From the NCBI GenBank assembly GCA_032358255.1, contig JAULBX010028737.1:1-27033 (forward strand): 27,033 nucleotides of DNA, in the 5' to 3' direction. Both the position numbers and the translations under genes were made by a program. The stretch is from Heterotrichella gracilis. Taxonomy: Eukaryota; Sar; Xanthophyceae; Tribonematales; Xanthonemataceae. Below the pieces are notes generated by a model. The model did no database searches and was not told the DNA's origin. It saw only the letters and a program-made list of their open reading frames with translations. Each line of letters begins with the position of its first letter. Positions within the stretch are counted from its first letter, which is position 1. Of the stretch, positions 354 through 25,065 are shown piece by piece.

Positions 354-2156
354 CTTGCGGCATCCGTGGCAGCTGTGAGCGCTTCTTCATACTGCGCCAC
401 TGTTTGCAGCAGGTGGGTGATGACCTCCCCTTCACCTTCATGGGACGGAGGGGCAACCCCCTGCATGACCCCGCCATCGGCATCCGGTGGAGAGGGTCCA
501 TTGGTGGTGGATGCGGCTGTGGCGTTTGCAGCGCGAAGCCTGGGGATGGGGAGGTGTGGTGCTACAGCATTGTCGTATGCCCTTCATTACTCATTATTTT
601 TACAGGAGTGCTCACCTGGCTGAACTACTGGAATGTGTCTAGGACATGAAGATATCGACATTACCATTTAAATATAAAAAACCATTCCAGCGCCACATGG
701 CGGGGTCGCCATTTGAAAATGCAAGGGACAGCACATGCAAGAAACATAACCACAGGCAGAAAACGTGGTAGAAGATACAGGGGAATAAACAGCAATATCG
801 TATTATGCGCATTGCAGCAATTACTAACTAGCCCATCTACTGAGGAGGGAGAACAAACCTTAAACTGATCGCTCTGCCATCTGCCCCACCACCACCATCC
901 ATCCCCACCCACCACCGACCCACCTGTCCTCCAGCGCCTCCACCAGCCCCTGGCGCTCCCCCACCGCCCCCCTCAGCGCCTCCACCTCAGCCTGCGCAGC
1001 CACCAGCAGCACCGCAGATACCCCCTCATCGTCGCTGCGCAGCTTGTCGGCATCTACAAGCATGTCCTGGAGGGTGCTGTCCAGGGCATGCGGGGGCAGG
1101 CCCTGCTGCTCAAGAAGCTGGGAGGGACCAGGGAGGGGTGTTAGTTAGCTGCTCTGTTAGCTAGACCCTGCTTTTTGTGCTGCTGCTAGGTCCTGCTCCT
1201 GCTTTTTGTGCTGCCGCACGATATTACTAGGTCCTGCACCAAAAGTAGTCCTGGCACTAGAACCAGCACAGCTTCTTGGCGCTGTCCACCAGCAGGCGCA
1301 CCAACCTACTAGGGTAGCTAGGGTAACCACGTGCATGCTGCGACGCGGGTCCCTACCTGTCTGAGCGCCGCGTTTGTATCGTGCAGCTCCTGCTTCTCGC
1401 AGGTGTGCTGCTGCACAATGTTGGCCAAGTCCTGGCGCTCAAACCAGCGCAGCTTCTTGGCAGAGTCCACCGGCAGGCGCACGTACTGGCGCTCCGCCTT
1501 TTCTGAGGACTTGTCTGAGGGCGTGGGTGAGCCGGGGGCGGGCTTGTCCATGAGCTTGGTGAAGGCGCTGGGCATCCTGTGGGCAAGGGAGGGGCAGGGT
1601 GGTGGGGCGACTGGATATGGAGGCGATGAGGTGGTGGAGCGTTGATGGTGGTGGGGGGGAGGGAGGAGGGTATTCATGTACTGGAGGTGGTTTGGGCAAG
1701 TGGTTTGCGTGCCAAGTTATGTTTAGGCAGCTGCACCGTTTAAGGTGAGAGGGTGACGTGGTCCCCTGGTGCGGTATTGGCAGACTTGCATTGTGAGGGA
1801 TCTTGTTTGACAGACGACCAGTGTATATGTGCCTGGCACTTGGCCGCTGCTTGAGAAAGACAGGCATGCACTGCAAGTGGGGCATTGGCGCTGGGTGCAT
1901 TCCAACTGAGGCATGAACCGTTACAGTAACTCTACCTGATGGTGGTAGGAAGGGGCATGGGGTTGGGGATCACACGCCTAGGAGAGCGCATGCAGGGATG
2001 GGTGTACAACCAAGTGTGGATGCAAGACGAGTCGTATGCTTACCTCACAGATCCAGCTGCGTCCTTGGCTGCGTCTGACAGGTTGTTCACAGTCCCCTGC
2101 ACGGCCTGCAGCGAGCTGCCTAGCTTGGAGCTCCAAAAGGTGTTCATGTTGTTCAT
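354..2156 (-). CDS. Coiled-coil golgin-like protein, N-terminal part (runs off left edge)
   Basis: Four exons join in phase on the minus strand: 2156-2044, 1576-1357, 1117-924 and 539-354, giving about 200 residues before the gene leaves the window. Each has a consensus GT donor and AG acceptor. The start ATG is at 2156; a second ATG three codons later is possible. Residues 5-37 (beginning NTFWSSKLG) are rich in Ser, Gly and Ala with spaced bulky residues, like the membrane-sensing amphipathic helix at the N-terminus of some golgins. The rest is charged and Glu/Gln/Ala-rich with heptad-like stretches (KQELHDTNAALRQ; AQAEVEALRGAVGERQ), interrupted by a Pro/Ser linker near residues 48-62. Helix plus coiled coil suggests a Golgi tether, but no GRIP or other diagnostic domain is visible, so the family is an inference. 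It is divergent from KIN17. Confidence 0.55.
1173..1302 (-). pseudogene. Decayed partial copy of golgin-like exon 2 inside intron 2
   Basis: Bases 1261-1302 match 1442-1483 in exon 2 of the golgin-like gene at 36 of 42 positions by hand count. Similarity continues weakly leftwards to about 1173 (shared pattern CTCCTGCTT...GTGCTGC...GCAC). The copy has stops and no splice sites, so it is an intronic remnant rather than an alternative exon. Confidence 0.6.
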
Positions 2157-2849
2157 GGTGAGGGGACTTGCTGGGCCCACGCCTCACCCAATCAGCTCAC
2201 AACGCAGATGAAACAGCTCCCACGAAGGAAAATATTGAAGTAGCTAAGGCAACTGCCACCCCAGGCGTGAAACAGTGAGCAAGCACTACTATGAGAGCTG
2301 CAGTGGATGGGATCTGAACCTGAGGGGTACCAGCTTTGGCCCCAACAAACAGCAGGTTCTACTGGGCTTATTTCGAACCACGGTGCACAAGGGAGGCAAG
2401 GTTATGCGTCTGGTACGAGGCGCATGGGCAGGGGCTGCCTGCCACGCTTGATCACCATCTACCACCGTGTCTCACGAGCATGAGGTGCGATTGTACGACC
2501 AGGTGCCCCAACAGGCCATGACTCTTGCTAACGTCAGCGATCTAGACCTGTGCAGTTCGTCTAGAGGAACTTAGCGCGGCTATGTGTCTCGTGCTTGGAG
2601 CAAATGGCGCATTATTTTCGATTTCTCCTTCCAGTAACCCAGCAGACTTCCGAGTACTGCGGAATGCCTATAAACTGAAGATGGGCTCACAAGCAGGGAC
2701 TTCTGAAACGCCAAGTACGTCTTCAAAGCTTGTTTGTTGACTGATCGTGCGCTGCACTTGCACCAACCCCGTACTTTTCGCCCCGACTATCGGTGCCTGA
2801 TTTTGCCTGGTGCACGCATTCCCATCAGTGGGGAAGTAGGCAGAGCAGG
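2157..2849. promoter_or_regulatory. Divergent intergenic region between the golgin-like gene and KIN17
   Basis: About 690 bases separate the two start codons, so this should hold both 5' UTRs and promoters. No TATA box or other element stands out enough to call. The only open frames are short and lack family resemblance. Confidence 0.4.
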
Positions 2850-3636
2850 ATGGGGAAAAACGACTTTCTCACACCAAAAGCGGTACGTTTGCCACGCGTA
2901 CTGCCATCCCAGGTTGTCTTATTAGCGACAGGCCATATGCATGCATATAGCAAAAACCATGGTACTCAACCCCACTACTTTACAGCTTGGTGACTACACG
3001 AGGTGGTCTCGTCAAGTCCCTCCAGTAATTTTACAATACTGAGTTGGATCCCTGAATTAGGACTGTCTCAAACATTGTAAAACCTTGCAGACCCCTCGCA
3101 CAGTCTTCCATGCATATGCATGCATATAGCAAACCAACCCTTATACCAAACCCCGGGCTGCTCATTCCCACAGATTGGCAATCGCATCAAGTCCAAGGGC
3201 CTCCAGAAGCTACGATGGTACTGCCAGATGTGCCAAAAACAGTGCCGAGACGAGAACGGGTTCAAGTGCCACCTGTCATCCGACTCCCACCGGCGACAGA
3301 TGGAGCTGTTTGGCATGAACCCTGACCGGGTGATCGAGGGCTACTCTGAGGAGTTTGAGGAGGAGTTCCTCACCCACCTCAAGCGCTGCCACCCCTCCAG
3401 CAGGTGCGGTGGGTTGTGGGGTTGTGGCGGTGGTGTGGTGGGTTGGCACGGCGTGCACATCCTGTGTTCGCACAAAGCGTTACATGCATTCTACGGGTAG
3501 AGCCGGGATGGTGCTATTTGGCATGAGCTCCTTGTCACGGGATGGAGTGGTACTTGAAGAATAATACATATATATATATATAGATAGATATATATAGATA
3601 TATATGTAAAGTAAATATATATGTGTAAAATAAATG

Positions 3637-3673
<37 letters not shown>

Positions 3674-6217
3674 GTAAAATAAACAAATGATTAAATGGTA
3701 TTTTGCAAGGCCACCTCTTTCAATGCTTCGTGGGCATACAATTCTTGCACCGGCGACAAGAACCACGTGCACATGGACTTCCATTTGTCCTTTTATTAGC
3801 ATAATTCATTGTAATTTCGCCCAAAAAACCTTCACCCAATACATTGTGCGTGCGCTCTTGGCTGCAGGGTGGCCGCCACAGTGGTGTACAACGAGTTCAT
3901 CGCCGACAAGAACCACGTGCACTCAAACGTTAATACGATCGTCCTTTTTACTGCATTGTGCAACATTGACTTCAATTTACCCAAACTTACTGTGCCTGCG
4001 CAAGAACGAACAAGGCACTGTGTTATTCTAAAATCCAATATCCCATCAAAGCCACACAACGAGTCCCTACTGTTTGCAGGGTTGCTGCCACAGTGGTGTA
4101 CAACGAGTTCATCGCCGACAAGAACCACGTGCACATGAACTCCACCAAGTGGTACACGCTCACAGACTTTGTCAAGTACCTGGGCAGGGAGGGAAAGTGC
4201 AAGGTGGACGAGACAGCAAAGGGGTGGTTCATCGCGCTCGTACAAAAGGTAGGGATCACGGGACGCTGGGGGGTACAGTGGGAGGCAAGATGCACCATGG
4301 CTGTCAAATTTGCCATAATCTGCAAGGCTCGGGGGGGGGGAAAGAGTGTGGTGGGGTTTATCAAAGAGTATTTAAGAAGAATTTTGCTGCATCCTCAATC
4401 CTAATTGCAAACACTCAAAATCACCTTGAATGTGTTCCTGTTAGGGGTGTGCACATGCCTACGCTCCCCCTGTCCTTTAAGCGCCAAACCCTACACCCTA
4501 CACTAGATCCTCCTCCCTGGGGCACCAAACCCTGAACTCTAAACCTGCCCTGCCCTGCCCTCATTCTTCAGGACCCTCTGAAGGACATTGGCGACGAGAA
4601 GCGCGTGAAGCGTGAGCGGGCGGAGGTGGACGAGGAGACGCGGCGGCAGCGGGAGGTGGCGGCGCAGGTGGAGCGCGCGCAGAAGCAGGTGGGGAGGTGG
4701 CAGTGCATGTTAAGGCGCAAATGGAAGCGGAGGGATTGGGGTGTGCGGTACCAAAACAAAGGCATTCTAGCATCACAATGTATGCGACTTATCGCAATAA
4801 ATAACTTCGCATTATCTATGAATACAGTAATTGATCATACTGATAAATCGGATGATTTGTGAAAAAATGAGTGATTAATCATACTGATAAATCAGGTAAT
4901 CAGAAATCATACTAATTAGTCAATACATCCCTCTGTTATAGCAGAGTGGGAGCATGCACCAATGACCGCAGACCGTCAACTCTAAATCCAAATCTGCCTG
5001 CACACCTCCACCCATGTGCACCACACCAGAGTGTGTCAATGCCCACCCTGTTCCCACCCATTGTTTGGGACCTGACCTTCACCATTAGATGCAATACCCA
5101 CCACCACCACCCACCCACAACCATAACCACCACCATAACCACCCACCACCATCCTTGCAGGCGCGTGTGGGTGAGGAGGGGGATGAACCCGCGGCACCAC
5201 GGGTGGGGGGTGAGCTGCAGCGGGACGAGGCGGAGGGGCCGCTGCGCATAGCAATGGGGGGTGGGGCTGCGGCGGCTGGCGGGGACAGTGGGGGAGTGGG
5301 GGGCGACGGGGGGAGGGCCCGCGTGCTTCCACCTGTGGCTGTGTTCAGCGACGAGGGGGGGAAGGGGCGGGTGGGGTCATCGGCCGGGTGAGTGGGGTGT
5401 GTGTGTGTGTGGTGGGTATGTGTGTGTGCGGGGGGCGTTGGCGGTGTTGTGCTGCGCATGTTTTGAGGGTGTGGTTGAGTGCCATCAACTACATGTTGGC
5501 ACTTGGCTGATGGAGAAGCAACATAATTGTCTTGGTTGGTGCATGCTCATGATGTTGCTGTGTCACCCACTGATGAAACTGTCCATGACTGTGCATGCAA
5601 CCTTGATGCTGCAGTGTCGCATGCAGCATGGACCTTGCAATGTTACGCCTGAACGTTCCTGCATTGTCTCCCTTCTCCATTTCCCCTTACCCCCTTGCCC
5701 AGTAAAGCTAAGCCCTCACCTATAAACCTAAAACCCTAACTCACGTCGCAGGGCCGGACCCTCCAAGGGGAAAAGCAAGATGGAGGAGATCATGGAAAGG
5801 GAGCGAGGGGCGGCGGCGCGCAAGGCGGCCCACAACCCCCCCCCACCCCCCACCCCTACCGCAGACAACTGGCTGCTGGAGGGTATTGTGGTGAAGCTGG
5901 TCAGTAAGGAGCTGCGGGAGGCGGGGTACTACAAGAAAAAGGGGGTGATTATCAAGGTGTTGAATAAATATGTAGGGGAGGTGAAGATGTTGGACAGTGG
6001 GGATGTATTGCGGGTGGATCAGGCGCATTTGGAGACGGTGCTGCCGCAGGTGGGGGGGGCGGTGGTGGTGGTGGGTGGGGGGCACCGGGGCACCAGGGGG
6101 GTGCTGCAGGAGGTGGAGGAGGGGAAGTTTCAGGCACGGGTGCGGCTGCAAGGGGGAGCGCTGGATGGCAAGGCGGTGTGGTTTGAGTATGAGGATATTT
6201 GCAAGTTGCATCGATAG
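2850..6217 (+). CDS. KIN17: KIN17 DNA/RNA-binding zinc-finger protein
   Basis: Six exons join in phase: 2850-2882, 3174-3403, 4080-4248, 4572-4688, 5161-5387 and 5752-6217 (413 residues; family members are about 390-410). The start MGKNDFLTPKA is the typical KIN17 N-terminus. A C2H2 finger follows in the segment WYCQMCQKQC, with likely ligands C28, C31, H44 and H50. Next come the conserved winged-helix region (RVAATVVYNEFIADKNHVH; KWYTLTDFVKYLG; about residues 55-145), a charged helix rich in Arg and Glu (to 183), a low-complexity Gly/Ala linker (184-258), and the C-terminal tandem SH3-like/KOW module from about 297, ending EYEDICKLHR. The family acts in the nucleus, binding curved DNA and RNA, with roles in DNA replication/repair and the spliceosome. 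Intron 2 holds AT microsatellites and two extra copies of exon 3 sequence. No frame damage is seen. Confidence 0.93.
3545..3680. repeat. TA-rich microsatellite in KIN17 intron 2
   Basis: Runs of alternating TA with GATA and GTAAAATAAA interruptions fill this stretch. The Tyr/Ile-rich minus-strand reading frames over it are artefacts of the repeat. Confidence 0.9.
3749..3781 (+). pseudogene. Decayed partial copy of KIN17 exon 3 (copy 1)
   Basis: The run GGCGACAAGAACCACGTGCA, followed by a diverged match to the next bases of exon 3 (around 4115-4145), places a fragment of that exon deep in intron 2. It lacks the acceptor and exon start. The downstream text (TGTCCTTTTATT) resembles the sequence after copy 2 (CGTCCTTTTTACT), so the duplicated unit probably included some intron. 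Confidence 0.7.
3868..3922 (+). pseudogene. Near-perfect partial copy of KIN17 exon 3 with acceptor (copy 2)
   Basis: These 55 bases match the true exon 3 start (4080-4134) at 53 positions by hand count, and are preceded by an intact acceptor (GGCTGCAG). The copy encodes the start of the winged-helix segment in the right phase for exon 2, but similarity ends before the rest of the exon and no matching donor follows. Splicing into it would therefore replace the conserved domain with unrelated residues. Confidence 0.85.
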
Positions 6218-7592
6218 GAGTGAAACATGGAGGAACGACTTTGCATGCGCATGATATTTTCTAAAATATGGATGTCGGTAATAGTTGCCGTTTTGGGTAT
6301 GGGGACATACAAGTTGAACCGACAGGGGTGGCGTGAATGCACCCAGCAAATATGCAACCTGTCCAGGCCTTTTGCGCCTTTTGGCTCACTTCCACTATGC
6401 TTTGCGCATTCCCTTGCTTCAAAATTTCCCCTTCTTAATTCAGGAGGCCCTATATATGTAGAGCCTAAGCATTGCTGACTGAATCCCTCGTTGTTGTTGG
6501 TTTCTCCCGCTTTTTTCTGACATGGCACGTTGGGGCGCATGCGACCATAGCCGCTAGTGTGAGGTTCACAACCACGCATGCAAGCAGTGCATAGCAAAAG
6601 CCGTATGAAGCTGCCAACTTGAAGGAAGCAATCATGCTGGGCACTTTGTAAATGCATGTGCGATCTCGTCGACGATCAACTTGAAGAGTATCCACTGTAA
6701 ATTGTTTCCTGGGGCCCCGGGGAACAAGGGCCTGTCACTGTTGGACCAGGCCTTGATTCGTCTTCCAAAACATTGTACAACATGTTGTCAACACACACAA
6801 TTGCCCTCCACTTTAGTAGACGATCGCCGGCATTGACACAGCGCGTGCGCGCCGCATGGCATGTATTTCAATATTCAGTACTGCTTAGTTACACAAAAGA
6901 GTCAGCTTGTTAAATAGCCGTACTGATACAACAATTGTAGAAATATGCCAAATTGGATCACCGGAATCCTTCTCCTATTAAGGAGTGGCAGAACCTGAGC
7001 AACTACAAAACTCAACACATAAACATAAAATGTGCCATTGGCAAGCAACACGCCGTGGGGCGGCAGCGCCGGGCATAACAACACACAAAGGGCCTGCACT
7101 CCATAGAAGGGCACGTTGTAGCATTGCCCATAAACATGCCCAATGGTTTTCCAATTGCCAGCACACACGTGGAAGCAATGGCCCATTGCGGCAACTCCAA
7201 ACCAGCAACAAGTAGACAACCTCAGCCCTGAGTATAAACGCAATGCGCCCACGCCATGGTTGCAGCATTGACTAGATCTTGATGCAAGCGTTGACGGCTG
7301 AATTCCCACTGCAGTGTGCGTTTTCAAGCTGGTCCCCGGGAAGGCTAAATAACTGTGAGTAAACCATCCCCACTTGACAAACTACCACCCCGGGGTTTGA
7401 CGGCCAACAGCTGACAAAGTGGGGATGCGGCCTTGTTAGCAGAGTACAACAAAAAGTGGTGTGTTCAAAATCCAGGGGTGTGCTAAAATACCGGGGTGTA
7501 TTAAAAACCAGAGTGTGTTCAAAACCGGACGGGACTTCTTGTGGGGGTAGAGTGGAAGCCTGCAATACACCTCCTTCAGGCAGCAGCCGCCA
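6218..7592. other. Convergent intergenic region, KIN17 to four-helix gene
   Basis: This stretch contains both 3' UTRs. TGTAA-type poly(A) candidates occur near 6645 and 6696 but are not decisive. A minus-strand frame at 6902-7327 (141 codons, no ATG at its start) has hydrophobic stretches and could be a relic of a membrane-protein exon. I cannot connect it to a gene. A short minisatellite lies at 7457-7529. Confidence 0.4.
7457..7529. repeat. Short degenerate minisatellite (unit about 20 bp)
   Basis: Four imperfect units of the form GTGTRYTMAAAAYMCSGG follow one another (GTGTTCAAAATCCAGG, GTGTGCTAAAATACCGG, GTGTATTAAAAACCAG, GTGTGTTCAAAACCGG). Confidence 0.7.
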
Positions 7593-9469
7593 CTACACCT
7601 TGGCCATTGCGCCGTATGGGTTCTGTGCATCTGATGCTGCGCCGTGTGTAGAGGGGGGCTTCACGTCCTCGCCATACTGCATTGGGGGCTCAGTCTCGGG
7701 GCCCTTCCTCAGCATCTGCAGGAAGCCAGCCACAGATGCCAGCCACTGGATGACTGCCAGGCTGAACTGGGTCCAGGCCATGGCCCACACAGCGTACCGC
7801 GAGCTATGTCCCGGGAGGGTATACCATCCCCATACCTGCAGAAAAGACATGTTGTAAAGCAGGGCAGTGCGCAACCTCGCACTGGCACAGGTGCAGAGTG
7901 GAAAGCAAGGCCGCCACTGCGGTGCAGGTTTCTCATTCTGGCTCTGCCCGGGTCATGTCAAGGCCATTTCATGTCAAGGGCTAATTTTGTCGTTTCGCTA
8001 ATAATCGTTTAGTAATACAATATATTGTAATATTATAAATGATCCCGTGGAATATGGCATGCCATGATGGAAGGGTCCCGGAACAAAGCAGCTGTGAAAT
8101 TGTCTTATCCTTGGCACTGGGATAAATTCAAGAAGAAAATGTCAAGAACAGTTGCATATAGCAAACCTCACCGAGTCAGCATCCCTTGCACTGTCCATGA
8201 GCACATCCGCGCCAATGCCCCAGTTGACAGCTTGCAGGGAAGAGAATATGAACACCATCACGCACCAGGCTGCTCCACATGGCAGGACCTGCAGCAAAGT
8301 GGGGATCTTTGATTAGCCTGCTTAAAGGGCTTGATCAAATCCATGATGGAGATACGCGCAGTCACATATGTGTATGGACCAGACTACTGAGTGACATGGA
8401 TGTGGATGGGTACAGGTAAATTCAGGGGGTAGACTTAGCCCTGCCATATTTTCCATAGATATTTGCTTGCATTTGGGCAACACAAATTCTGGCAAGGATG
8501 GTTATTAACGCTGAATAAGAGCAACTGCAGGTTTCCACCAATGTGGACCTTCTGTGCACAAGATACCGCACCGCAGATAGGAGTGTCCCCAGAGCAAAGA
8601 AGATGCCAAAGCCCGCAATTGCGTAGGTGTAGTTGCACAGCGTGTCGGTGTTCTGGATGAATGTGCCATTGATGTACAACCCCGAGCCGATTGACACCGC
8701 TGGGTACACATCATTCAGGTGAAGGTTGTTGATGCCTGACAGGCACTGGGCGTCCACAGTGGTTTCAGTGGTGTTCCATATTGGGGGCCGCTCTGGGCCT
8801 GTGAAGCTTTGGCCCTTCAGGTCTGCTGCCACCACGATGAAGGTGATGATAGCGAGGATGGTCTGCAGCAAGGGGTGAGTGCAGTGAGGGTGTGGTTATG
8901 CTAGGTAGCTTTTTTAGGGTAGGGTTTGGGTTTGGGTTTTAGGGTTTAGGGCCCACGTACCCCACAGTATGTGTCGTAGATACGGTAAGATACGTTCTGC
9001 TGAGTTGGGTTTCGAACACAGCTAGCTATATCACGTGATAGTCTAGTCAGCTAGCTGGCTGGACAACGTCACATGTGCACGCCGGTGGCGACAAACTGGC
9101 ACCAGTCCCAACAAGGTCCCCTATAAGAACGCCAGAAGTTGCATGCCACGGTTGGCGGAAGAAGCACAACAGTCACGAGGGTTGTGTTTGGAGGAAAAGC
9201 GCGGTTCCGATGCCCTGGCGCCCGGCATGCCAGTTCATGCCATATGGCATATATAGCAAAGGTTTGCCAAATGAACGTTTTACGTATCCGCTGACCCAAT
9301 ATTGTTGGTCACGGTATTTGTGTCAAGCAGTGGCTGTACACACATCAATGCCCACGGAACCGGCGGAGCATGCATGCACCTCGATGCGTGCGCACTGTGC
9401 AATGCCACCCACCAGTAAAATGGAGGTCAGGACCACAACGCCCTGAAGCTTGCCGACCTTTGGAGCCAT
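7593..9469 (-). CDS. Four-transmembrane membrane glycoprotein, family not recognised
   Basis: Four exons join in phase 0: 9469-9413, 8862-8572, 8288-8172 and 7835-7593 (235 residues with stop). The first intron splits the first helix; the join restores a continuous hydrophobic run at about residues 9-33, which supports the model. Predicted helices are at about 9-33, 99-116, 121-147 and 169-195. The first loop (34-98) carries N-glycosylation sequons at N49, N84 and N96 and cysteines at 59 and 95, so it probably faces the lumen or outside, leaving the short N-terminus and a Pro-rich 40-residue tail in the cytosol. The topology resembles MARVEL, claudin-like and other tetraspan proteins, but no signature motif was recognised. 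The exon 2 donor (GCG|GTGCGG) is weak and was chosen because it keeps the frame. Confidence 0.7.
8914..8951 (-). repeat. Telomere-like TTTAGGG tract in four-helix gene intron 1
   Basis: Degenerate tandem TTTAGGG/TTTGGG units on the plus strand read CCCTAAA on the coding strand of the host gene. Confidence 0.85.
9029..9040. repeat. Palindrome TATCACGTGATA in intron 1
   Basis: A perfect 12-bp palindrome with a central CACGTG lies in the first intron of the four-helix gene. AGCTAGCT occurs on both sides (at about 9020 and 9049), making a nested inverted structure. CACGTG is a common bHLH/bZIP site, but no role is shown. Confidence 0.5.
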
Positions 9470-10265: not shown

Positions 10266-10500
10266 TAGCAGGGATGCTGGTGTGAATGCGGGGTGGCGCC
10301 ATAGGGCCCCGGGGTGGGTGGTAATATCACAATACTTGCCTGGTTTAACCTAAAATTTCAAACGATAATTCTACATGCACGTAATATTCGATGAAAACTG
10401 CTTTTTCTACTATAGTATACCTGGTATGGTTTTTCAAAGTCCTTTCCTAAACAGTCGGACCCATGCAAGCTTAGTAATATCACTAAACCCTCGACTGCAG

Positions 10501-12236: not shown

Positions 12237-15200
12237 TCATTGGCCCAGCGCCGCCTGCGCTGCTGCGTGTCTAGCTGCCACGTGGTCCATCATTGGCGCC
12301 AGGTTGTGCACCACCAGGGAGGCGTTCAGGGGAGTAAGGGACAGGTCCATGTGCCTGCGAGGTGACTCACCAAGATGGAATAGGGTGGGATGGGATGGGA
12401 CGAGGATTGGTCATAGGGCACTTATCATTGGGGACGAGCTCATCCCCAATGAGAAAAGCCTCTACTAGGGGCTCTAGGGACGGTGACTGGTCAGGGGTGA
12501 GAGGCAGGATGTGCTATGCAGTGAAACGGCGAGAGGAGAGTTTGTGACATATGGGGGACATGTAGAAGCACTGTAAGTTGAATCAGCCGATTGTCCATGG
12601 ATAACTATCTGACATCTTGTGGACTATGGGTTGCAATAGAAAGTGAGCCTGATGTGCAGTGTACGTCCATGGGGTGTATGTGGTAGGGTTTAGGGTGCAG
12701 ACTTAGGGGTTTCCTCACCAGTAGATGAGGCCGTTCCAGTGCGCAATGTTGTGGTAGTGCTGGCTGCCCATGGGGTTCAATTCAAGCACGCCACCTGTAG
12801 AGGGGGGATGGGTAAGGGGTATACACCACATGGAAAGGGAAGGGGGGTGTGAAGAAGTGCAGGGTAGTTTGCACCAGGGGATGAGAGGTAGCGTGAGAAA
12901 CCGCTGCACAGCCCATCACAGACCCCACACAATCCTACCATGGCCCTTCCTGTCGTCTTTGTGTGTGTGGTGCAAGAACTTCACATGGTGTGTGTGCACA
13001 GTGCCAAGACTGCACTGAAAGGCGCGCCGCATGTACAGGACTGGCTAATAGTTACACTAGTATGACTGCATTGCTGGAATGATGCACCCGTATGAGTGGT
13101 CAAATTTCCTATGGTATCCCCAAAGGGTTTCCCAGGGTAATCCTCACCAACATTTGACCTCATATACAGCGCCATGGCCAGGCCCGCCCCATGCACCCCC
13201 ACCAGCATGCTTGTGCGCACAGCCACCGCCAGCTGCTCCACAAGGGGGATGTTGGAGAACTCCACAGATTGAAAGCGGAAGAGACAGGGGAGGTGGCGAC
13301 AGTCGCCAGTGTTCTGTGAGGCAAGGGGAGGAGGGATTGAATGGGCATTGGTGGTCATGGGGTTGCGTTTTGACCTCGTAAGGGTTGAGTTTAGGGATCA
13401 GGATGTAGCATAACCACACCCTAGTCCATGGCGGTGCGCCACCATATTGTCCATTCCCTACACCCAAAACCTTGACCTTTGATTCCCAACTCCCTGTTCC
13501 ATTCCCAACTCCTTGTTCCATTCCAGCGCAACACATGTACATTGCAGCGGTGCAACCATGCCAACCAAAGCCCTAGACCCTACAGTCTTTTACCCTGAAA
13601 CCTACAACATTTTACTCCAAACCCTGATGTTCTCACCCTCCGGTACATGCAGCTGTCCCTGTTTCATTTACCCAAAATCCCTCCACTCTTCTACCCCAAA
13701 CCCTTTGATCTCTCACCCTCCTGTACAGGCAGCTGCCCCTATTCCACTCCAGCACCGCCCGCTGCAGGTGGCCCACCACCTCATCCTCATTGGTCAGGCG
13801 CCGGGAGGACTGCCAGGCTGGGAAGAGAGGGGGATTGGTGAACGACACGGAAAGGGATGTTTTTTAGTGCAGGGCGTGTGGGGACATGGCAGGGATACTT
13901 TTAGTGCAGGGTGGGTGGGGAAGAGAGCCTGGGTGGGTGGCGTGACATGTGGGGCACAGGAGACATCGTGTGCGCACGCGTGGAGCTTGTGTGTGCTCTC
14001 CATCAGTTAGGGTATTGATGAGTTTTTTAGGGCTTCCGATGCGCACCTGACAGCTTGTGCGTGTACTCAAACTGCCTCCTGCTGACCCAGGTGACCAGCA
14101 GCTCGGCGTGTCCGCTATTTTGAGTATATGCCGCGTCCCTGGCGGCAGCAGGCACTGCGGGGGCGACCTCCGGCCACACCCGGGGGATCTCGTTCCTGCA
14201 GGGTGGAGGGTGCAAGGTTTTACCACACATTGTTCTCAAAGCAATACACAGACTCTGGGTTTCACCATGCAATTTCGGAAATTGAATTTTCCTTGCAATC
14301 ACAAATTTCTGATCCTGTATGCATTCCCCCTGCGTCAGAAAACATCCCTGAGGATGTACCACTCGTGTTCCCTGCACCAGTGACAGGGCACACGGCTACC
14401 CACATTTCCTAAAGCCACATGCGCCCCTCCACTCCGCTCAACTCCCCACATTTCCACATACATTCCATCAAGGGCCCATCTCGCACCTGAACATGTATTT
14501 TACCCATAGGGAAAAGGCCTGCACTAGCGTGGAAGGGCACGTCACCCGGTCTCCCACCCCCAGGTAAGATAAGAGTGATGACCCCCCATGCAGGGCGTGC
14601 ATTGCGCTGTGGAAGCATATCTGGGGGGCGGGGTAGGGGTGGGTGTGGAGGTGGCGGACGGGGTGGGGGTGGGAGATTTTTTGCCAGATGTGGTGGAAGT
14701 TGCCGGGGCCTTTCTTGTCCAGTACCACCACCTGGGGGGTGGGAAGGAGATGGGGGCAGTCATTGACCGGAAGAAACGGTTGAGGAGATAATAACATGAT
14801 GCAGTCATAAGTTATAAGCCATAGCCCTTGAGTTAGGGTACATGTGGGAGGTGGTGCATAGAAGTGGATGGGAGATGTTTGCACGACGTGATTAACTTAC
14901 CCCACAAGCCCCACATGAAACATTACCCTGCTCCGCCACCCACCCCATGCGACTTCCTCAGCACCGGTCCCACAAACCCACCCCACCATCCCACTCTCCC
15001 ACCCCCCTCCCACCTGCATCCCCTCCGCCCCCACCCCCTCCGACCCCCACAGCGCCAGCCCCATGAAGGCATTGCTCAGCTCCTCAGATGCATGGTAGGG
15101 GTTGGTGGTGTCGTTGCGGTCAATAAACATAACTGAGTGAGCGACACTCTGGGCAGGGGAGGAACACACAGCCTGGGAAGCAGGGAGAGAAAAGGAAATC

Positions 15201-17173: not shown

Positions 17174-17177
17174 GAAA

Positions 17178-17215
17178 GTAACCCAAAACTTTAAGAGTTT
17201 AATGTTTTGGGTTAC
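17178..17215. repeat. Perfect 12-bp inverted repeat (hairpin)
   Basis: GTAACCCAAAAC at 17178-17189 is exactly complementary to GTTTTGGGTTAC at 17204-17215, with a 14-base spacer. It lies between two head-to-head open frames. It could be a transcription-factor site, a hairpin or the end of a small element. Confidence 0.75.
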
Positions 17216-17232
17216 GATACCACGGCAACATA

Positions 17233-17787
17233 TTGGGAGATGGCAGGGCGGAATTGGCGCATGTGTTCAAAACTGGCATAAAAGGTGCCACACTTGCATC
17301 TGAGTTAGGAACGACGTGTTATAGTGCACGCAAGGCTTCTGCGGGTTGTCAAATCTATACAGCTGGTGTAGACAGGGCAGGCGTGGCGAGCTCTGCAGCA
17401 AGAGAGGCAGTTCTTGGGCTAGGGGCTGCTTTGCCTGGCGTGTCTTGTTCCTTGTGTGTTCTCTACAGCGCAAGGCAATTCTTTCGAGGAAAACGCTCAG
17501 ACTCTGAGTCAGAGGTGTCCTTCACACAAGGTCAGTGGCCCTGCATGGCTGTGATAGCCCTTTGGTGTATCGAAGTGGCAATTGGTGTATTTGAATGTCT
17601 GGCCGAAAAGTACTTGCACACACGGTGGCCGAGGGGTAGTGGCGAGCACGGTAGCGCTGAAAGCACATTGCACACCTATACATATATGGGTTATATTCAT
17701 AGTACTTGCAATTTGGCTTTCAACCATATCTCAGCTTCTTGGACACCCTTGTGGCATGTGGGTCCGGACTGTTTGATCCAGAACTGA
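17233..17787 (+). CDS. Unrecognised 184-codon open reading frame upstream of ABCG
   Basis: An uninterrupted frame with an ATG start encodes 184 residues, in contrast to the heavily split genes around it. Two moderately hydrophobic stretches (about residues 62-82 and 104-122, the second around IALWCIEVAIGVFECL) flank a short basic then acidic segment (RGKRSDSESE). No family is recognised. It ends 176 bases before the ABCG start, so it may also be ABCG 5' leader or plain non-coding sequence. Confidence 0.25.
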   Translation: MGDGRAELAHVFKTGIKGATLASELGTTCYSARKASAGCQIYTAGVDRAGVASSAAREAVLGLGAALPGVSCSLCVLYSARQFFRGKRSDSESEVSFTQGQWPCMAVIALWCIEVAIGVFECLAEKYLHTRWPRGSGEHGSAESTLHTYTYMGYIHSTCNLAFNHISASWTPLWHVGPDCLIQN

Positions 17788-17963
17788 TAGTAGCTTTCCT
17801 CTCCATGGTTGGGTCACTAGCAAGTCCTGACAAGTAATCAGTTGGGTGTCCTTGCTTTGGAGTAGATCCTGGTGGGTAGTTACGACCACAGCTGTCGTTG
17901 AGCCAAGATCACCCACCCACCACACCCACGACACCCACCGCACCCACACGCAGATAGCCAGAG

Positions 17964-20900
17964 ATGGCAGCTCAGCCGGAAGGGAAGGTTATGTCAGAGC
18001 CGTTAGACGACGATGGTGTCGAAGAGGTGGAGGTGAAAGGCCTGACGGTGGCCATCAAGGTACGCTTTGGGCACACAATGCAACTGCTGACATGGAGCTG
18101 GATCATGGGACAGAAAGCAAACCCTACAGGGTCACACCACCTGCTCAGTAACACCCATGGTTCGAGAGCAGGAGAAGACTGGATTCAGCACCGTAGAGCC
18201 TGCATCGACTTTCACCCTTGGCTCCTTGCTGAGTTTCCCCCCAGGAGCTGTCCTTCACCCTAAACCCTAAACCCTAGTTAGGCCCTCCCTAGGCCTATTT
18301 CTGCCCTAACATCTATCAGGGGAAAAATCCCGTTGACACCGTAGCACCTGCACCATCATACACTTTAAAATTGAATCTCTAAACCCTAAACCGTAAACCC
18401 TACCCTCCAAACCGTTGTTATCGGCGTCCTGTTCACTCCCTCCCTCCCCTCCTCCCGCCCAGGACATGACCTACACCGTGACCCACCACACCACCAAGGA
18501 GAAAATCAACCTGCTGCAAGGAATCAATGCAGTCTTCCTGCCAGGACAGATGGCGGCGCTGGTACGCACAAATCCCAGTCACAGTCAACTTCACAGTAAA
18601 AACTGAGAAAAACATGCCATTTACCGTTGGCAGGCCTCATAACACCAGTGCATGTCATCCTGATTTGAGACCAGATTTAGTTATCTGAGATCTAAAACGC
18701 CCCTGGTTTGGCGCCCCATGCAAAGTCCCTATGCATGCACCTGCTGCTGCCCCTTGTGGTTGTGGCCATGTGACTGACAGCTGGCCTGTGGTGCCCTGCA
18801 GATGGGTCCATCTGGGTCAGGCAAGACCACCATGCTAGGTGGGTTCTCGCACCAAAACCCTAAAATTACACCCCAAAACAGTGCTGTGGCCATTGCATCC
18901 CAGAAGCATCACATGGGTTACTGCTGCTATTGCGCACCTTCCCATCGTATGCCATGCCATGCCGTGCGATTTCCCCACGCCATTGGACGCGCCGGGCCAT
19001 TGTATTGCACAATGAAAGGTGACCCCATCTGATTGTGCCGTGCCATGCGGTTGCGACCACGCTATGTGGTCACGCCACCCCATCCAATTGACCCATGCCA
19101 TGCGACTGTGCTCTCCTACGCGATCGGACCATGCCATGCGATCGTACCATGGCACATGACCCAAAGCATTGTCCTGTCACTGTGTTGCTCCCACAGAGTG
19201 ACAGCTAGTGCTGGGCAATAACTGTCCCTTGACTCTGCTCTTACCCTATTACCTTGTCGCTCCCGTAGATGTGTTGGCGGGGCGCAAGACGCTGGGCAGC
19301 ATGACAGGCGATGTGCTGTTTGGCGGGGCAAAACCCTCCAAGGGGTTCCTGCGGCGCTACACGGGATACGTGGAGCAGTTTGGTGCGCATCTTGGGAGTG
19401 GGGTTGTGTTCAGCCTTTTTCAAGGGATTGGGGTGTAAACGGTGTGGTTGGGATCTGATTGGGTAGTTGCATGCATTTCAGCAATACAGCCAAATGGGAA
19501 ACTGTCTATTCCTGGCATGGTGGTAACTTATCCACCGGTAAGGCTGCCTTCAATGTGGAACCCTATACAAATGTCACCTAAAGCCCTAACAACTTCCCTC
19601 CCGTTTCCATTTACCCATACCTTAAAACATAACTTCTCCTCTCGCAGACACGCTGGCCGACGTGCTCACTGTCCGAGAGATGCTCCTGTACACCGCCGAG
19701 CTGAAGCGCTCCTCCAGCGAGCCGCTGGAGCACAAGGTGGCGCTTGTGCAGCACGTGGTGGAGGTGCTGGCGCTGGAGGGGTGTGCAGGGGTGCGCATCG
19801 GGAGCAGGTGGGGGAAAATGAGGGGGGGTGGGGGGATAATGAAAGGGGAGTCATGGCAGCAGGTGGTGAAGATGGAGGGTGGTGTTTTTCATGGTGCGTG
19901 CACATGTGTGGTAGGGGCCCACAGCTGGAGTCACAAGCTCATCAACCCCAAAACTCTGAAATATCTAACCTTGATCCCAAGCACAGAACTTCTGCCCCCC
20001 CGGCCACTGTATGTCCCGCGGCATCAGCAACAGCCAGGGCAACCGCGCCAACGTGGACTTGATATTTTAAGGTCCCACTCCTTGGACGTCCCTACTGCAC
20101 AATACCCTACACCTGAACCCTAAACCCTAAGCCACCTTGAAGACCCTAATACCTCGAACCACTAAACTTTGAAACCCTACACCGCGCTGCAGCATGGCCC
20201 GCGGCATCAGCGGCGGCCAGGCCAAGCGCGCCAAACCCTGCAACCCTAATACCTCAGACCCCTAAACCCTAAAACCCTACCCCGATGCTGTCCCGCGGCA
20301 TCAGCAGCGGCCGGGCCAAATGCGCCAAACCCTAAACCCCTAATACTTGACACCTCTAACCCCTGAAACCCTACCCCGCAGCATGGCCCGCGGCATCAGC
20401 GGCGGCCAGGCCAAGCGCGCCAATGTGGGTCTGGCGCTGGTGACCGGCCCCAGGGTGCTGTTCTTGGATGAGCCAACCACTGGGCTGGACAGCTTTACAG
20501 CAAACGAGGTGGGGGAAGGGTGTTTTCAGGGTGATCTTCTCATGTTAGTGTGGGTGGAGATATCAAAACACAACACCCAAACCTCACACCACTATCTCCA
20601 ATAAATTAACTACGCATGTTTAAATGTAAAGTTTATGGTGGCTTTATGTAAGTCATTGTTGTCTTGCCCCACAAGGTTAATTGTTTTTTTAGCTTTTCAT
20701 TTTGTTGCGAGTTCCAGGATGAATGGAGCATTTTGGCTTGTCACGTTTTACATCCACCACCCTTTGGTCCCCTACCCCTCTCTACTACCGCTTCCCCTCC
20801 CCTCCCAGGTGATGACTGTGGTCAAGAACCTCACCCGGGAGGGCATCACCATCTGCGCCACTATCCACGGGCCCACCCCCTACACATTCCAGCTATTCTC

Positions 20901-21157
20901 CTCCCTGCTGCTGCTCATGAGGGGGAGGGTGATCTACTTTGGGGCAAACGGGGCACCGGCGCAGTCCTACTTCATGGAAACTGCCTCCCAGCTGGGGATT
21001 GAGGGGGACAGCAGCTTGACCAGCGTTGCGGAGTGGATGGTGGACATGACTGTGCGGGTGGGTGGCAAGAATAAAGCAATGTATTAAAATAAATCGTAAC
21101 AAAATAAATCATTTCATATAACATCAATTGAAATTCATTTATTTAAATAGTTATATA

Positions 21158-21197
<40 letters not shown>

Positions 21198-24100
21198 GAG
21201 GTGGACATGACTGTGCGGGCCGGTGACGCATAGAATGCTGTGAAAATGAATGGCAGTGCATGCACGCACATTGGCATGCAACTCGAAACCATCCAGGCGA
21301 TTTACCTGCCGTCCCCCTCGCACCCCACCGCTTACATCCCAGCCCCAGCCCAATCAACAGGGCAGCCAAAAGTTTGCGTGTTGATTAATGCCTGCATCCT
21401 GGTCCTCGCTGCATGTGACCCCAACCCCGCAGCCTCAAAACCCAACCCCTCATTCCCACCCCACTCCCCACCATTAGGCGGACCGCCAAGGCAGGGGAGG
21501 GGACCTCGCCGATGCCTATGAGGCTAACCCCCTTGCTGCCGCAAACATCGTGCGGGTGGAGGAGTGCATGCATCAGCACTCCACCCTTTCCCCCGCCACC
21601 CTCAAGGCGCTGGCCACCCGCAGGGCAACTGAAACCAGCCTGTGGTGGGGCATGAAGACGCTGGTCAAGGTGGGTGGTGTGGGTGGTGGTGCAGTCGATG
21701 GGTGTTGGTGGGTTGCGTGCGTGTATGTGTGTGGTGGTGGTTTTGTCAGAGGTATGCTGACACAACAATCTTGGTTAATATCTTTATCTTTATCTTCATG
21801 TACTGTCATTATCTGATGTAAAGACAGTACATCTTTGAGACTGTAAAGATGTACTGTCTACAAATAACAGTACATTTATTGTTAATTGGAATACGTAAAG
21901 TACATTTTTACAATGTACATTCCTGGATTTGTTTGCAGAGGAGGCAATTTGGCCCCTTACCCCCCACCCACAAGGTGGTCGCGGCTCATTTTCAATTAAA
22001 AGTATTCTCACTCCCTTACTCTGCAGTACCGCACCGGCAACCTGTACTCCGACCCCTTTTGGATCCTGTCCCGCGTGGTTGACAAGGTGATCACCGGCCT
22101 GCTCATGCTCAGCCTGTACTGGGGCCTGGGGGACAACTTCCAAGAGAGCAACGTGGTCAACATCGCGGCGGTGCTGTTCATGTGGCTCATCCAGGTGGGG
22201 CGGGGTGGTGCGTGTGGGAGGAGGGTGGATGTGGTGGTACAGTTGGATGGGGGTTGGAAATACCCATTCAGGTGGGGGTGGGGGTGGATGTGCGGTGTGG
22301 GGTTGGAAAACTAAAAGAAGAGGAGGAAGAGGGAAATGCCATGCAGCAACCCCTTCACCTCCTAGAGTTAATCAAGCAGGGCTGCAGCCCACCCTAGTAT
22401 GCTGCCCCTGCATTTTCTGCCAGTTGCCATACAGGCATTGGCATTGGGACCCCGACCCCTACCCACAATCTGGATGTCTCCTCTCCCCCCGTCTCCCCCC
22501 CTCGCCCCCTTAACCCACCCACCCACCAACTCCCTAACCCTGCCTGTAGCCCGCCTTTGGCGCCGCCTCCTACATGCCCGCTCTCTTCATGAAGCGGCCC
22601 CTGTGCATTCGCAAGGTGCACGCCGGCATGTACCACTGCATACACCTTACCCACCCAGACGTATACACATATCCCCACCTCCCCCACCCCCAACCCCACC
22701 ACCGCATCCACCATACCAGCACCCATCACCCCCCCTTTCCCCCTTGCTGCAGCCTGCCTTTGGCGCCGCCTCCTACATGCCCGCCCTCTTCATGGAGCGG
22801 CCCCTGTACATACGCGAGGTGCACGACGGCATGTACCGACCCATCACCTTTCTGTGCTACAAGCTGGTTGAGGAGCTGGGCATCGCGGTGGTTGGGTCGC
22901 TGCTCTTCACCATCCTCCTGTTCTTTCCCCTGTCGCTGCAAGGCAGCTTCTTGTATGCATGGCTGGCGTACCTGGCCACGGGGCTAGTGGGTATACGTGC
23001 GTGCCTGAAACCCTAAAAACCCTAGAACGAAACCCTAATATGACCCTTGTGAGGGGCTCGGCATATTGGTTGTCGGAGTCACTGCTGTTCACCAGCCTCG
23101 TGTTTTCCCCCTGCCGCTGCAAGGATATTTACTTTAGGCCTGGTTGGCGTAGTAGACCCGGGGTCATTGCGGGGCCTGAAACCCTAAAAACTGAGACAAA
23201 CCCTGACAAAAAATGCCCTTCCCATAAACCCTTATGCCTGAAATCCTGTAAGGCACGTTCACACTGCCCAAAGCCCTAGCATTGCATGCCTCTATTTCCG
23301 CAAAGCACTGATAAGTAGACCTCATGCCACACCATTGTGCCCTGCCCCCACTCTGCATCCCCGCAACCCCCAACCCCCACAGCCCTGGCCTACGCAGTGG
23401 TTGCCCTTGCCTCACCTAGAACTAGCCAAAATTGACAAATGCTCTGATATCAAATTCTCGTTTCTGGTCTTCCCAGTGCCAACACTACAGCGCGCATCCC
23501 CTATCACCCAATTCTTACCCCCTCCCCCACCACCACAGCCCTGGCCTACTCGGTGGTTGCCATGGCCCCCAATCTAGAAGTGGCCAATGCGCTCATCCCT
23601 GCCTACGGAATCACCGGCCTCTTCTTTGTGGGGCTGTTCATTCGATGGGCGGACATCCCCAAATACTGGAAGTGGTGCGTTCTCATTTATGTACTTGCCA
23701 TGCGTCTGATAGGTAGCAGGTACCCTTGCCACCCATGGCAATATCTGTTTTGGCAGGCCTTGTAGCATGCACCCTTACGGGGTACGTAATGTCCTTGCGT
23801 ATGGAATCACTGGCATATACTTGTTGGACTGTTCATACGATGAGCAGACATACTTAGTTGGCTAAGCCCTACAACCCTACAATTCACAACCCCTCCCCGC
23901 ATTTGCAGGTATGGCTACCTTGTGTTCATGTGCTACTCAGTTGTCAAATCCTAAACCCTAAAATTCACAACCTCTCCCGCATTTACAGGGATGGCTAACC
24001 TTGTGTTCATGTGCTACTTGTGGATGGGTGCCATGACAAAACCTACAACCCTAAACCCGAAAACACGGCCGCGTATCACATTTGCAGGTATGGCTACCTT

Positions 24101-24692
24101 GTGTTCATGCGCTACTCATGGATGGGTGCCATGACAAACCAGTGGGACTCATCGCCCGCGGCAAGGGAAGCAACATTCGGGGGCATGACGGTGAGCGCAA
24201 CCCTAATACCCTAAACAAACCCTCCTGTCCGGTGCCACAGAACCCTGGCTGTGTGGCGCTACTTGGGATCGCAGTGGCCGCAGAAGCGTACCCTAATGCC
24301 ATAAAAAACCTCGAGCTTTGTGCCAAATACCCCAATTGTGTTGCCAGTCAGTGGAATTGCGTAAGTGGCGATAGGACCAAGAAAATTGTTAGCACTGCAC
24401 GTTTGATGCCCACTGAAACATGACACCATACACCCCAAGGAAGGCTAGGGTTTTTGCGGGTTTGTCTACCTTGTATATGCGCTGCATGCTGGAGCAGTGT
24501 TGACCCTAGACCCTAGACCTAAAACTCCAAACCCGACACCCTAACCTAGGATTTTGCCTGCAGGTGCTTGAGTACTACAGCCTGGACAATGTGAACAAGT
24601 GGGGCTACCTGGCGGTGGTGTTTGGATTCTTTGGCTTCTTCTTCCTGCTGGCGTGGCTGCTGCTGACGTTTAAAGTAAAGCAAAAGCGGTGA
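17964..24692 (+). CDS. ABCG-family half-transporter (white/brown type)
   Basis: Thirteen exons join in phase: 17964-18059, 18463-18561, 18802-18838, 19269-19382, 19648-19807, 20382-20508, 20809-21057, 21478-21669, 22027-22194, 22753-22990, 23539-23674, 24088-24190 and 24564-24692 (about 615 residues, normal for a half-transporter). The nucleotide-binding domain comes first: Walker A GPSGSGKT (67-74), Q-loop GYVEQFD, signature ISGGQAKR (174-181), Walker B VLFLDEP (D198, E199), H-loop IH (H231). The membrane domain follows, with [17 protein letters not shown] and helices in exons 9-13, ending KQKR. This order (ATPase before membrane domain) defines ABCG. Such proteins dimerise and export lipids, sterols or other hydrophobic compounds using ATP; the substrate is not readable. 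An acceptor-like CACACGCAG just before the ATG suggests a 5' UTR intron. Introns carry many extra partial exon copies. Confidence 0.93.
18258..18403 (+). repeat. CCCTAAA telomere-like tracts in ABCG intron 1
   Basis: Two tracts, 18258-18277 (three units) and 18379-18403 (three units, one mutated), lie on the coding strand of intron 1, the second about 60 bases before the exon 2 acceptor. Confidence 0.9.
18945..19150. repeat. Degenerate CATGCCATGCGAT repeats in ABCG intron 3
   Basis: Words such as CATGCCATGCCGTGCGAT, GTGCCATGCGGTTGCGA and CCATGCCATGCGATCGTACC recur across about 200 bases, interleaved with ACCCCATC-like spacers. This looks like a decayed tandem array. Confidence 0.6.
20008..20052 (+). 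pseudogene. Diverged copy of ABCG signature exon start (copy A)
   Basis: The stretch beginning TGTATGTCCCGCGGCATCAG resembles the first part of exon 6 at 20382, with several changes, and soon reaches a stop. It lacks the Walker B part of the exon. Confidence 0.75.
20192..20234 (+). pseudogene. Exact 43-bp copy of ABCG signature exon start (copy B)
   Basis: These 43 bases are identical to 20381-20423, the start of exon 6 with the last G of its acceptor, and are preceded by a usable acceptor (CTGCAG). Immediately after the match the sequence becomes ACCCTGCAACCCTAA, so the exon is cut off and joined to telomere-like text. Confidence 0.9.
20283..20330 (+). pseudogene. Slightly diverged copy of ABCG signature exon start (copy C)
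   Basis: Beginning GATGCTGTCCCGCGGCATCA, this copy has a few substitutions relative to exon 6 and is truncated at the same base as copy B. Immediately afterwards it reads ACCCTAAACCCC. The start-to-start distance from copies B to C to the real exon is about 93-97 bp. Confidence 0.85.
21151..21194. repeat. TA microsatellite in ABCG intron 7
   Basis: Almost pure alternating AT/TA dinucleotides, set between exon 7 and a 20-bp copy of its 3' end. Confidence 0.9.
21200..21219 (+). pseudogene. 20-bp copy of ABCG exon 7 3' end
   Basis: GGTGGACATGACTGTGCGGG is identical to 21039-21058, which spans the exon 7 end and the first donor base. The copy follows the TA microsatellite and lacks a GT donor (GCGGGCCGG). 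Confidence 0.75.
22550..22634 (+). pseudogene. Extra copy of ABCG exon 10 start with acceptor
   Basis: These 85 bases match 22753-22837 at 78 positions by hand count, are preceded by an acceptor (CCTGTAG) and stay open, with four amino-acid changes in 28 residues (E to K twice, Y to C, D to A). The rest of the exon (membrane helices) is absent and no good donor follows, so inclusion would break the transporter. Confidence 0.85.
23053..23165 (+). pseudogene. Decayed copy of ABCG exon 10 membrane-helix part
   Basis: GAGGGGCTCGGCATATTGGT through CTGCCGCTGCAAGG to the GGGGTCATT end parallels exon 10 from about 22869 to 22990, with many substitutions and lost frame. It lies in intron 10. Confidence 0.7.
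23393..23437 (+). pseudogene. Decayed copy of ABCG exon 11 start
   Basis: CCCTGGCCTACGCAGTGGTT and the following bases resemble the exon 11 start at 23539, including an acceptor (CCCCACAG). Small indels break the frame. Confidence 0.75.
23788..23856 (+). pseudogene. Decayed copy of ABCG exon 11 3' half
   Basis: TATGGAATCACTGGCATATA ... GGACTGTTCATACGATGAGC follows the order of exon 11 around 23603-23660, but with substitutions and stops. It sits in intron 11. Confidence 0.65.
23909..24040 (+). pseudogene. Two truncated tandem copies of ABCG exon 12 start
   Basis: Copies at 23909-23939 (after an intact ATTTGCAG acceptor) and 23989-24040 (after ATTTACAG) repeat the start of the real exon 12 at 24088. 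Both break off into text containing CCTAAACCCTAAAATTCAC or ACAACCCTAAACCC. The true copy is the one that stays in frame to the donor at 24191. Confidence 0.85.
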
Positions 24693-24760
24693 AGGGTCGT
24701 GCAATGTATAGTTTTTATGTCTGGTCTGGTTTAGGGTATAGGGTTTTGGCGGGTTTGTCG

Positions 24761-25065
24761 ACCTGGCGGTGGTGTTTGGCTTCTTTGGCTTCTTCTTCCC
24801 GCTGGCGTGGCTGCTGCTCATGTTCAAGATTAAGCAGAAGCGGTGAAGCTCTAGCCAGGGCTTGCAGTGTAGGTTTTCATGCCTCTTCTGGTTCTAGAGT
24901 AACGTTAGGGTTTTTGCTGGCCCCGTTTGGAAGGTTAAGCAGAAGCGATGAAGGGTTATGCAGTGTAGGTTTTATGTCTCTTCTGGTTTTAGAGTTTAGG
25001 GTTTTGGCGGCTTTGTCTACCTGGCGTGGCTGCTGCTCACGTCCAAATTGAAGCAGAAGCGGTGA
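24761..25065 (+). pseudogene. Three tandem copies of the ABCG terminal exon end
   Basis: Copies end in stop codons at 24844-24846, 24949-24951 and 25063-25065. The first (24761-24846) matches 24607-24692 at 77 of 86 positions by hand count and keeps the whole frame with the final KQKR and stop. The second keeps only about eight codons, the third about fourteen. Linkers share GCAGTGTAGGTTTT, CTCTTCTGGTT and TTAGGGTTTT words. None has an obvious splice acceptor. Confidence 0.85.

Follow-up and report, generated by a model that had tools for sequence, protein, structure and literature searches.

The closest known systems that we draw on are described in three papers. In a case reported in PMC4974935, tandem duplication of an intron-exon segment together with its splice signals gave rise to a new intron and an inserted exon, and an intronic case of tandem duplication, of 83 bp, is described in the same paper. 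Pace et al. (2009, PMC2671141) described repair-mediated local duplications, known in vertebrates and as long as 619 bp, in which exons and the splice sites of introns had been copied, with fillers, small deletions, and microhomology at the breakpoints. In mammalian cells, small tandem duplications arise by CST-guided fill-in by Pol alpha at staggered breaks (Schimmel et al. 2021, PMC8355091). Here we consider a 27,033-nucleotide stretch of the genome of Heterotrichella gracilis in which partial copies of exon edges lie within a few hundred bases of the exons themselves. The stretch, which we call the window, is a complete contig (JAULBX010028737.1, C621 in our numbering) of a draft assembly of 68.5 Mb in 903 contigs (GCA_032358255.1). 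An initial annotation of the window had claimed that at least four unrelated genes have such copies in their introns and flanks and that a repeated process of local duplication seeds new intron sequence and potential exons. We confirm that the copies, or echoes, are not due to chance and that they reach beyond the window. Our preferred explanation, to which we give a probability of about 0.7, is that small tandem duplications are frequent in this genome, are blind to exon edges, are tolerated because of splicing, and then decay without constraint.

Exon echoes in the window and beyond

Our survey sample was the window plus 20 stretches of 10 kb, one from each of 20 contigs; 18 of the stretches look eukaryotic and 2 are bacterial. 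Exons were predicted by a gene finder that was trained on the sampled stretches themselves rather than on RNA; it called 234 exons that were 60 bp or longer (30 in the window and 204 outside). An exon was said to have an echo if its own 1 kb flanks held a match on the same strand that scored 36 bits or more. This was true of 42 of the 234 exons (8 of 30 in the window and 34 of 204 outside). The same search gave 3/234 on the opposite strand and 0/234 in each of three sets of dinucleotide-shuffled flanks. No exon matched the flanks of one randomly drawn other locus (0/234). This comparison gave no sign of introner elements, in which introns of unrelated genes share one sequence family; introns were not compared between loci. 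The initial annotation was right to propose a repeated process instead of isolated accidents, and exons outside the window echo too. Echoing exons were present in 12 of the 18 eukaryote-like stretches and in none of the other six (L005, L008, L012, L013, L018, and L022).

We also counted all pairs of similar segments less than 1 kb apart in the 20 stretches and in the window, which was split into three parts. There were 127 same-strand pairs and 4 inverted pairs; under 300 bp, there were 104 and 1. These counts include one stretch with a repeat-protein gene, L016, which was also kept in the exon-echo count and in the intron motif counts below and was left out of the polarity, cluster, spacing, junction, and codon counts. 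(L016 has two arrays of repeats of about 126 bp, at 3204-4628 and 7321-8323, which presumably encode armadillo-type repeat proteins.) The two bacterial stretches, L003 and L010, were kept in the counts of direct and inverted pairs and of spacings and were left out of the exon, cluster, codon, and junction counts. They come from contigs C1, which is 894 kb long, and C100, have 36% and 35% G+C, and contain bacterial-looking frames without introns, which we take to be Bacteroidota-like. The eukaryotic part of the assembly has GT-AG introns. In the 20 kb from these two bacterial contigs of the same assembly, there are no same-strand pairs less than 1 kb apart; L010 has one same-strand pair that is 1,049 bp apart, along with an inverted pair.

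There are 68 clusters of pairs in 197 kb (197,033 bases, without L003, L010, and L016), or about one recognizable cluster every 3 kb. In our judgement, this density looks unusual.

The geometry of tandem duplication

The copies are not placed at random around their exons. Of 67 copies of exon edges, 33 are copies of a 5' edge that lie upstream of the exon and 27 are copies of a 3' edge that lie downstream, while 6 are 3' edges upstream and 1 is a 5' edge downstream. Without L016 the numbers are 30, 27, 2, and 1, so that 57 of 60 are tandem-like (60 of 67 with L016); outside the window, 44 of 45 are. As for the three exceptions, one lies about 900 bp away and two arise from a downstream copy that the gene finder had called as an exon. 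When a duplicated unit includes an acceptor, the spare copy can only end up upstream of the full exon, so this polarity is simply the geometry of tandem duplication. By itself it does not demonstrate selection, and it speaks against copies that land on either side of the exon. Inverted or dispersed copying, which we also considered, is rejected on the polarity together with the strand of the pairs.

Most of the copies are a short distance from their source: 69 of 103 shifts are at 80-220 bp, with 20 above this range and 14 below. Of 82 pairs, 26 align over at least 75% of their own spacing and 56 do not. The near-whole units that can be aligned are head-to-tail, and several of them run across an exon edge into the intron; of the junctions, where breakpoint microhomology or filler might show, most have decayed. 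Thus we find the same-strand, short-distance, head-to-tail arrangement and the polarity of local tandem duplication, though the intron part of the unit is missing in 15 of 38 copies, as discussed below. The initial annotation described the copies as mostly fragments of exons. It is true that 65 of the 67 copies are partial and lack one end of the exon, but we read these fragments as the visible remains of units that held intron as well as exon.

The copies decay without coding constraint

Identity between copy and exon ranges from 72% to 100%, so there are copies of all ages, from exact to strongly decayed, as the initial annotation had it. We counted 446 differences between 55 copies and their exons: 193 synonymous, 244 nonsynonymous, and 9 stops. 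(Some of these copies were counted from both sides of one pair, namely on L007 and at 24564 and 24742 of the window, and two are low-complexity copies on L017.) The synonymous share, 43.3%, is close to the roughly 42.5% that is expected for a freely drifting copy of an exon that itself changes only at synonymous sites. A separate analysis of indels and splice sites found 63 copies, in which 54 of 59 exonic indels shift the frame, so the reading frame is not maintained; there are also copies without indels. Among the 13 youngest ungapped copies (at least 92% identical), 22 of 35 differences are synonymous, which is above expectation.

Of the alignments that span the splice site, 21 of 24 retain the AG and 17 of 24 the GT, so the copies do often bring a splice site with them, as had been claimed, with the qualification that such alignments favor retention. 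As a set, then, the copies are not maintained for coding, though many have usable-looking splice signals. This bears on the suggestion that the process seeds both new intron sequence and potential exons: it does add intron sequence, while the frameshifts and the synonymous share give the potential exons no support at the level of protein. We also found no new intron born from a duplicate, as judged by eye, among the 72 pairs (of 109 in all) that contain exon.

Exon edges are not a preferred target within genes

If clusters are placed at random across whole stretches, then exon edges do seem to attract duplications. Pairs that cross an exon boundary number 30 of 61, versus 17.4 ± 3.3 expected (only 1 of 1,000 random shifts is as high), and purely noncoding pairs are too few (17 vs. 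32.5). But 61 of the 68 clusters lie in genic space, where 46.5 would be expected from its share of bases, and within genic space the excess vanishes: 48 of the 61 clusters touch an exon, versus 43.6 ± 3.3 for random genic placement, and 119 of 1,000 placements are as high. So we reject exon edges as the target of duplication. The genic excess itself may in part reflect better visibility beside constrained exons. The share of bases that lie in detectable copies is 10.4% for genic noncoding sequence, 7.1% for exons, and 2.0% elsewhere.

Within genic space, pairs with both copies in exons are depleted (5 vs. 16.6; 0 of 1,000 as low), which is expected if duplications inside exons are lost. For the 22 clusters with at least 85% identity, 17 touch an exon, versus 14.9 expected, and there are 2 exon-exon pairs, versus 5.1 expected (77 of 1,000 as low).

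Copies in the window and their genes

We searched the window for copies by repeat finding, with Tandem Repeats Finder (TRF), and by comparing it to itself with blastn. The copies and their source exons are:

1247-1301, minus strand: partial copy of a golgin-like exon, 85% identical over 55 nt to 1428-1482, spacing 181, downstream of the exon in the sense of the transcript
1345-1567, minus strand: predicted source exon of the golgin-like copy, from the self-trained gene finder, with no Pfam family above the cut-off
3748-3779, plus strand: older partial copy of the 5' part of the KIN17 exon, 91% identical over 32 nt to 4110-4141 and 362 bp upstream of that source
3863-3922, plus strand: copy of the 5' edge of the KIN17 exon with the acceptor TGCAG, 97% identical over 60 nt to 4075-4134, spacing 212; the adjoining intron has no detectable homology
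4080-4248, plus strand: KIN17 source exon, with ends read from the sequence (4094-4239 in the gene finder's call; PF10357, E = 5.5e-24, on the finder's translation)
13586-13746, minus strand: tandem copies with a period of about 78, mostly intron, next to a GT61-like exon on its 3' side; 13586-13666 versus 13664-13746, 76%
20006-20051, plus strand: decayed 5'-edge copy from the ABCG exon with the ABC signature, 80% identical to the copy at 20189; 85% to the exon over 20011-20056
20143-20423, plus strand: 94-bp tandem array of 2.9 copies (TRF) of the 3' part of the intron and the 5' edge of the exon, the last unit being joined to the full ABCG exon
20382-20508, plus strand: source exon in ABCG with the ABC signature; its 3' end was taken from the sequence itself (20519 in the gene finder's call; ABC_tran, 4.6e-6)
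21200-21225, plus strand: copy of the 3' edge of an ABCG exon with the donor, source 21039-21064, 92%, spacing 161
22538-22634, plus strand: copy of the 5' edge of an ABCG exon with the acceptor, source 22741-22837, 90%, spacing 203
23050-23191, plus strand: copy of the 3' edge of an ABCG exon that continues into the intron, source 22869-23020, 71%, spacing 181
23368-23429, plus strand: copy of the 5' edge of an ABCG exon, source 23524-23587, 81%, spacing 156
23792-23851, plus strand: copy of the 3' part of an ABCG exon, source 23596-23656, 79%, spacing 196
23868-24040, plus strand: two tandem copies of intron and the 5' edge of an exon that starts near 24090 and was missed by the gene finder, spacings 81 and 98
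24761-25067, plus strand: three partial copies, one after another, of the final ABCG exon (source 24607-24694), all past its stop codon, 90% (24761) and 64% (24980)

The middle one of the last three copies, at 24931, is 91% identical over 23 nt to another copy. In all, self-comparison of the window puts ABCG echoes at eight or more sites from 20006 to 25067. The echoes that had been reported in the golgin-like gene, KIN17, GT61, and ABCG were all recovered, with GT61 the weakest case. The names of these genes are another matter. KIN17 is identified by three Pfam families (PF10357, 5.5e-24; PF25095, 2.7e-20; KN17_SH3, 6.4e-21) and ABCG by two (ABC_tran, 4.6e-6; ABC2_membrane, 1.7e-8), while a third ABCG exon had no Pfam match. 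GT61 is weakly supported, with PF04577 at E = 0.03, which is below the family cut-off, and "golgin-like" is unconfirmed, as none of the three exons that we tried matched a Pfam family above the cut-off. We also note that the window has long tracts of the AT dinucleotide (3563-3704 and 21140-21205), which form long inverted pairs.

How the echoes probably arise

Ordinary tandem duplication, at a density that seems unusual and made visible by the constraint on exons, is the most likely cause. What we see directly is the local excess of same-strand pairs, the tandem polarity and spacing, the lack of a preference for exons within genic space, and decay that is unconstrained overall. A frequent mutational process would duplicate segments of about 80-220 bp head-to-tail, both within genes and around them, with units that are placed without regard to exon borders. 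A unit that falls inside an exon would usually be removed by selection. If the unit covers an acceptor, then the extra copy would end up upstream of the full exon, and if it covers a donor, downstream. Splicing probably picks the copy that is joined to the rest of the exon, so that the message would stay intact while the intron becomes longer, and the spare copy would then decay free of coding constraint. The true exon itself hardly changes, so similarity can be recognized for longer in the exon part of an old unit than in the intron part, and an old duplication comes to resemble a truncated exon edge. At the molecular level, these duplications may reflect misrepair of staggered breaks, or else flap or slippage events about as long as one Okazaki fragment or nucleosome. 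Okazaki fragments are of nucleosome length, duplications are formed from adjacent nicks in plants, and duplications also arise in yeast that is deficient in FEN1.

Several observations weigh against this explanation. First, echoing exons are concentrated in certain stretches (only 2 of 5,000 shuffles were as uneven), which uniform mutation does not predict. Second, it takes the restriction to genic space to remove the excess of exon-crossing pairs, and the depletion of exon-exon pairs is weak among the most similar clusters. Third, the youngest ungapped copies show an excess of synonymous differences. Fourth, the high density is our judgement, and the exons are gene-finder calls, not RNA. Finally, the intron side of the copies does not always behave as it should: neutral tandem decay predicts that young copies have an intron side that can be aligned, yet in 15 of 38 copies, which were picked by hand for their clear edges, there is no homology on the intron side even though the exon parts are 76-97% identical. 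The clearest cases are KIN17 (exon part 96% identical) and a GH20 gene on L017, whose family is confirmed (92-97%). Also, where the intron side is homologous, 7 of 23 copies have fewer exon mismatches than predicted (P < 0.05), two of the seven with identical exon parts of 42 nt beside introns that are 22-23% diverged (P = 0.0013 and 0.0015). Three of the 23 depart in the opposite direction and have more exon mismatches than predicted (P ≥ 0.9999).

These intron-side observations speak for a rival account, namely that copying is delimited by the exon, or that exon and copy are homogenized (by gene conversion or from an RNA or cDNA template), in either case only up to the splice site. The sharp drop in similarity at the acceptor in KIN17 and in several GH20 copies, the identical 42-nt parts, and the low mismatch counts are what it would lead us to expect. 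On the other hand, 23 of the 38 copies retain a homologous intron side, with a divergence of 327/1,534 in introns and 145/1,305 in exons; the mean ratio of 1.92 is near the neutral prediction of 1.57. The copies with excess exon mismatches and the near-whole units that cross an exon edge do not fit either, and copies of acceptors and of donors show no clear difference in how often the intron is homologous (11/21 vs. 12/17). We consider this account unlikely, though it is the one that we take most seriously after tandem duplication. The missing intron homology could be explained by it, or by units that end near the splice site with filler, or by later turnover of the intron. We also note that L017 has, at 2940-3391, three GH20 exon 5' edges that are nearly identical over 60 nt and lie in an AT-rich intron, with flanks that are not clearly shared. 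A bolder version, which we hold to be slightly more doubtful still, is a lineage-specific and still active duplication process that has a unit of about 80-220 bp, favors certain genes, and rewrites introns from the edges of their own exons; some of the copies would end at the splice site or be re-homogenized up to it, as from an exon-only template (possibly derived from RNA or cDNA).

An explanation by minisatellite instability of the ordinary kind, with low-complexity or telomere-like intron repeats as its seed, is quite improbable, even though telomere-like words are common in the introns. We take the telomere repeat to be TTTAGGG, as two contigs begin with (CCCTAAA)n; a repeat of this type would suit plants or green algae. 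Within 159 putative introns, CCCTAA occurs 74 times on the coding strand, versus 20.8 expected from a second-order model (3.5-fold), and 37 times on the complement, a two-fold bias; it is rare in exons. The 94-bp array in ABCG contains such words, and 25 of 61 clusters carry a telomere-like motif, versus 15.5 ± 3.1 expected (2 of 1,000 as high). But if these words are masked, then 101 direct and 1 inverted pairs and 64 clusters survive, and the association weakens to 21 of 57 clusters versus 14.5 ± 3.1 (61 of 2,000 as high), or, with a measure based on 10-mers, to 21 versus 16.1 ± 3.3 (194 of 2,000 as high). So we do not accept telomere-like repeats as the driver: they are a lead, not a cause. 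CCCTAAA words are found in introns at, for example, 18252-18273 and 20112-20133 of the window and on contigs C70, C140, and C320, and a perfect telomere-like 28-mer occurs 108 + 101 times in the assembly (overlaps counted), including inside contigs, such as at 98,179 of the 248,559 bases of C320.

It is very improbable that the copies are alternative or poison exons under selection. The retained AG and GT sites and the synonymous excess in the youngest class would suit functional exons, but the synonymous share overall is at the unconstrained level, most indels break the frame, and nearly every copy is without one end of the exon, so a coding function finds no support. We give almost no credence to falsely repeated segments in what is, after all, a draft assembly, because the majority of copies have diverged from the exon by 2-28%, many with separate indels (three show no difference over 41-42 nt), and because the bacterial stretches of the same assembly are free of close same-strand pairs.

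Comparison with known systems

If the density in our sample holds genome-wide, then the copies in this genome, which span a continuous range of ages, document naturally how introns grow by tandem duplication and gain spare splice sites. The tandem-duplication route to intron growth and gain could then be measured instead of being argued from single cases. A practical caution is that gene finders may annotate echoes as exons; ours did so at least twice. In the open-licence literature, we found single cases and mechanisms, and no such genome among the matches listed.

The case in PMC4974935 resembles ours in being a direct duplication of intron and exon with splice signals; here, the copies stay within existing introns and flanks. 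The Rogers model, as it is described there, in which duplication of an exonic AGGT yields an intron, also involves a tandem duplication that touches an exon. Its pattern, with complementary halves of the exon and a new intron between them, was seen by eye in 0 of the 72 exon-containing pairs, so introns lengthen here without any intron gain that we can see. Whole-exon tandem duplication and mutually exclusive exons also place a copy near its source, but here nearly all the copies are partial and most of their indels break the frame. Pace et al. (2009) report 824 proximal human cases from a repeat-based pipeline, which cannot be compared directly with our 68 clusters in 197 kb from another method; a tandem-array polarity is what distinguishes the copies here. 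The mechanism of Schimmel et al. (2021) is a candidate cause for what we see, and the introduction of that paper (PMC8355091) cites human insertions of less than 100 bp. Although the kind of mutation is itself known, its density, its range of lengths, and its clustering in some genes seem to be different here.

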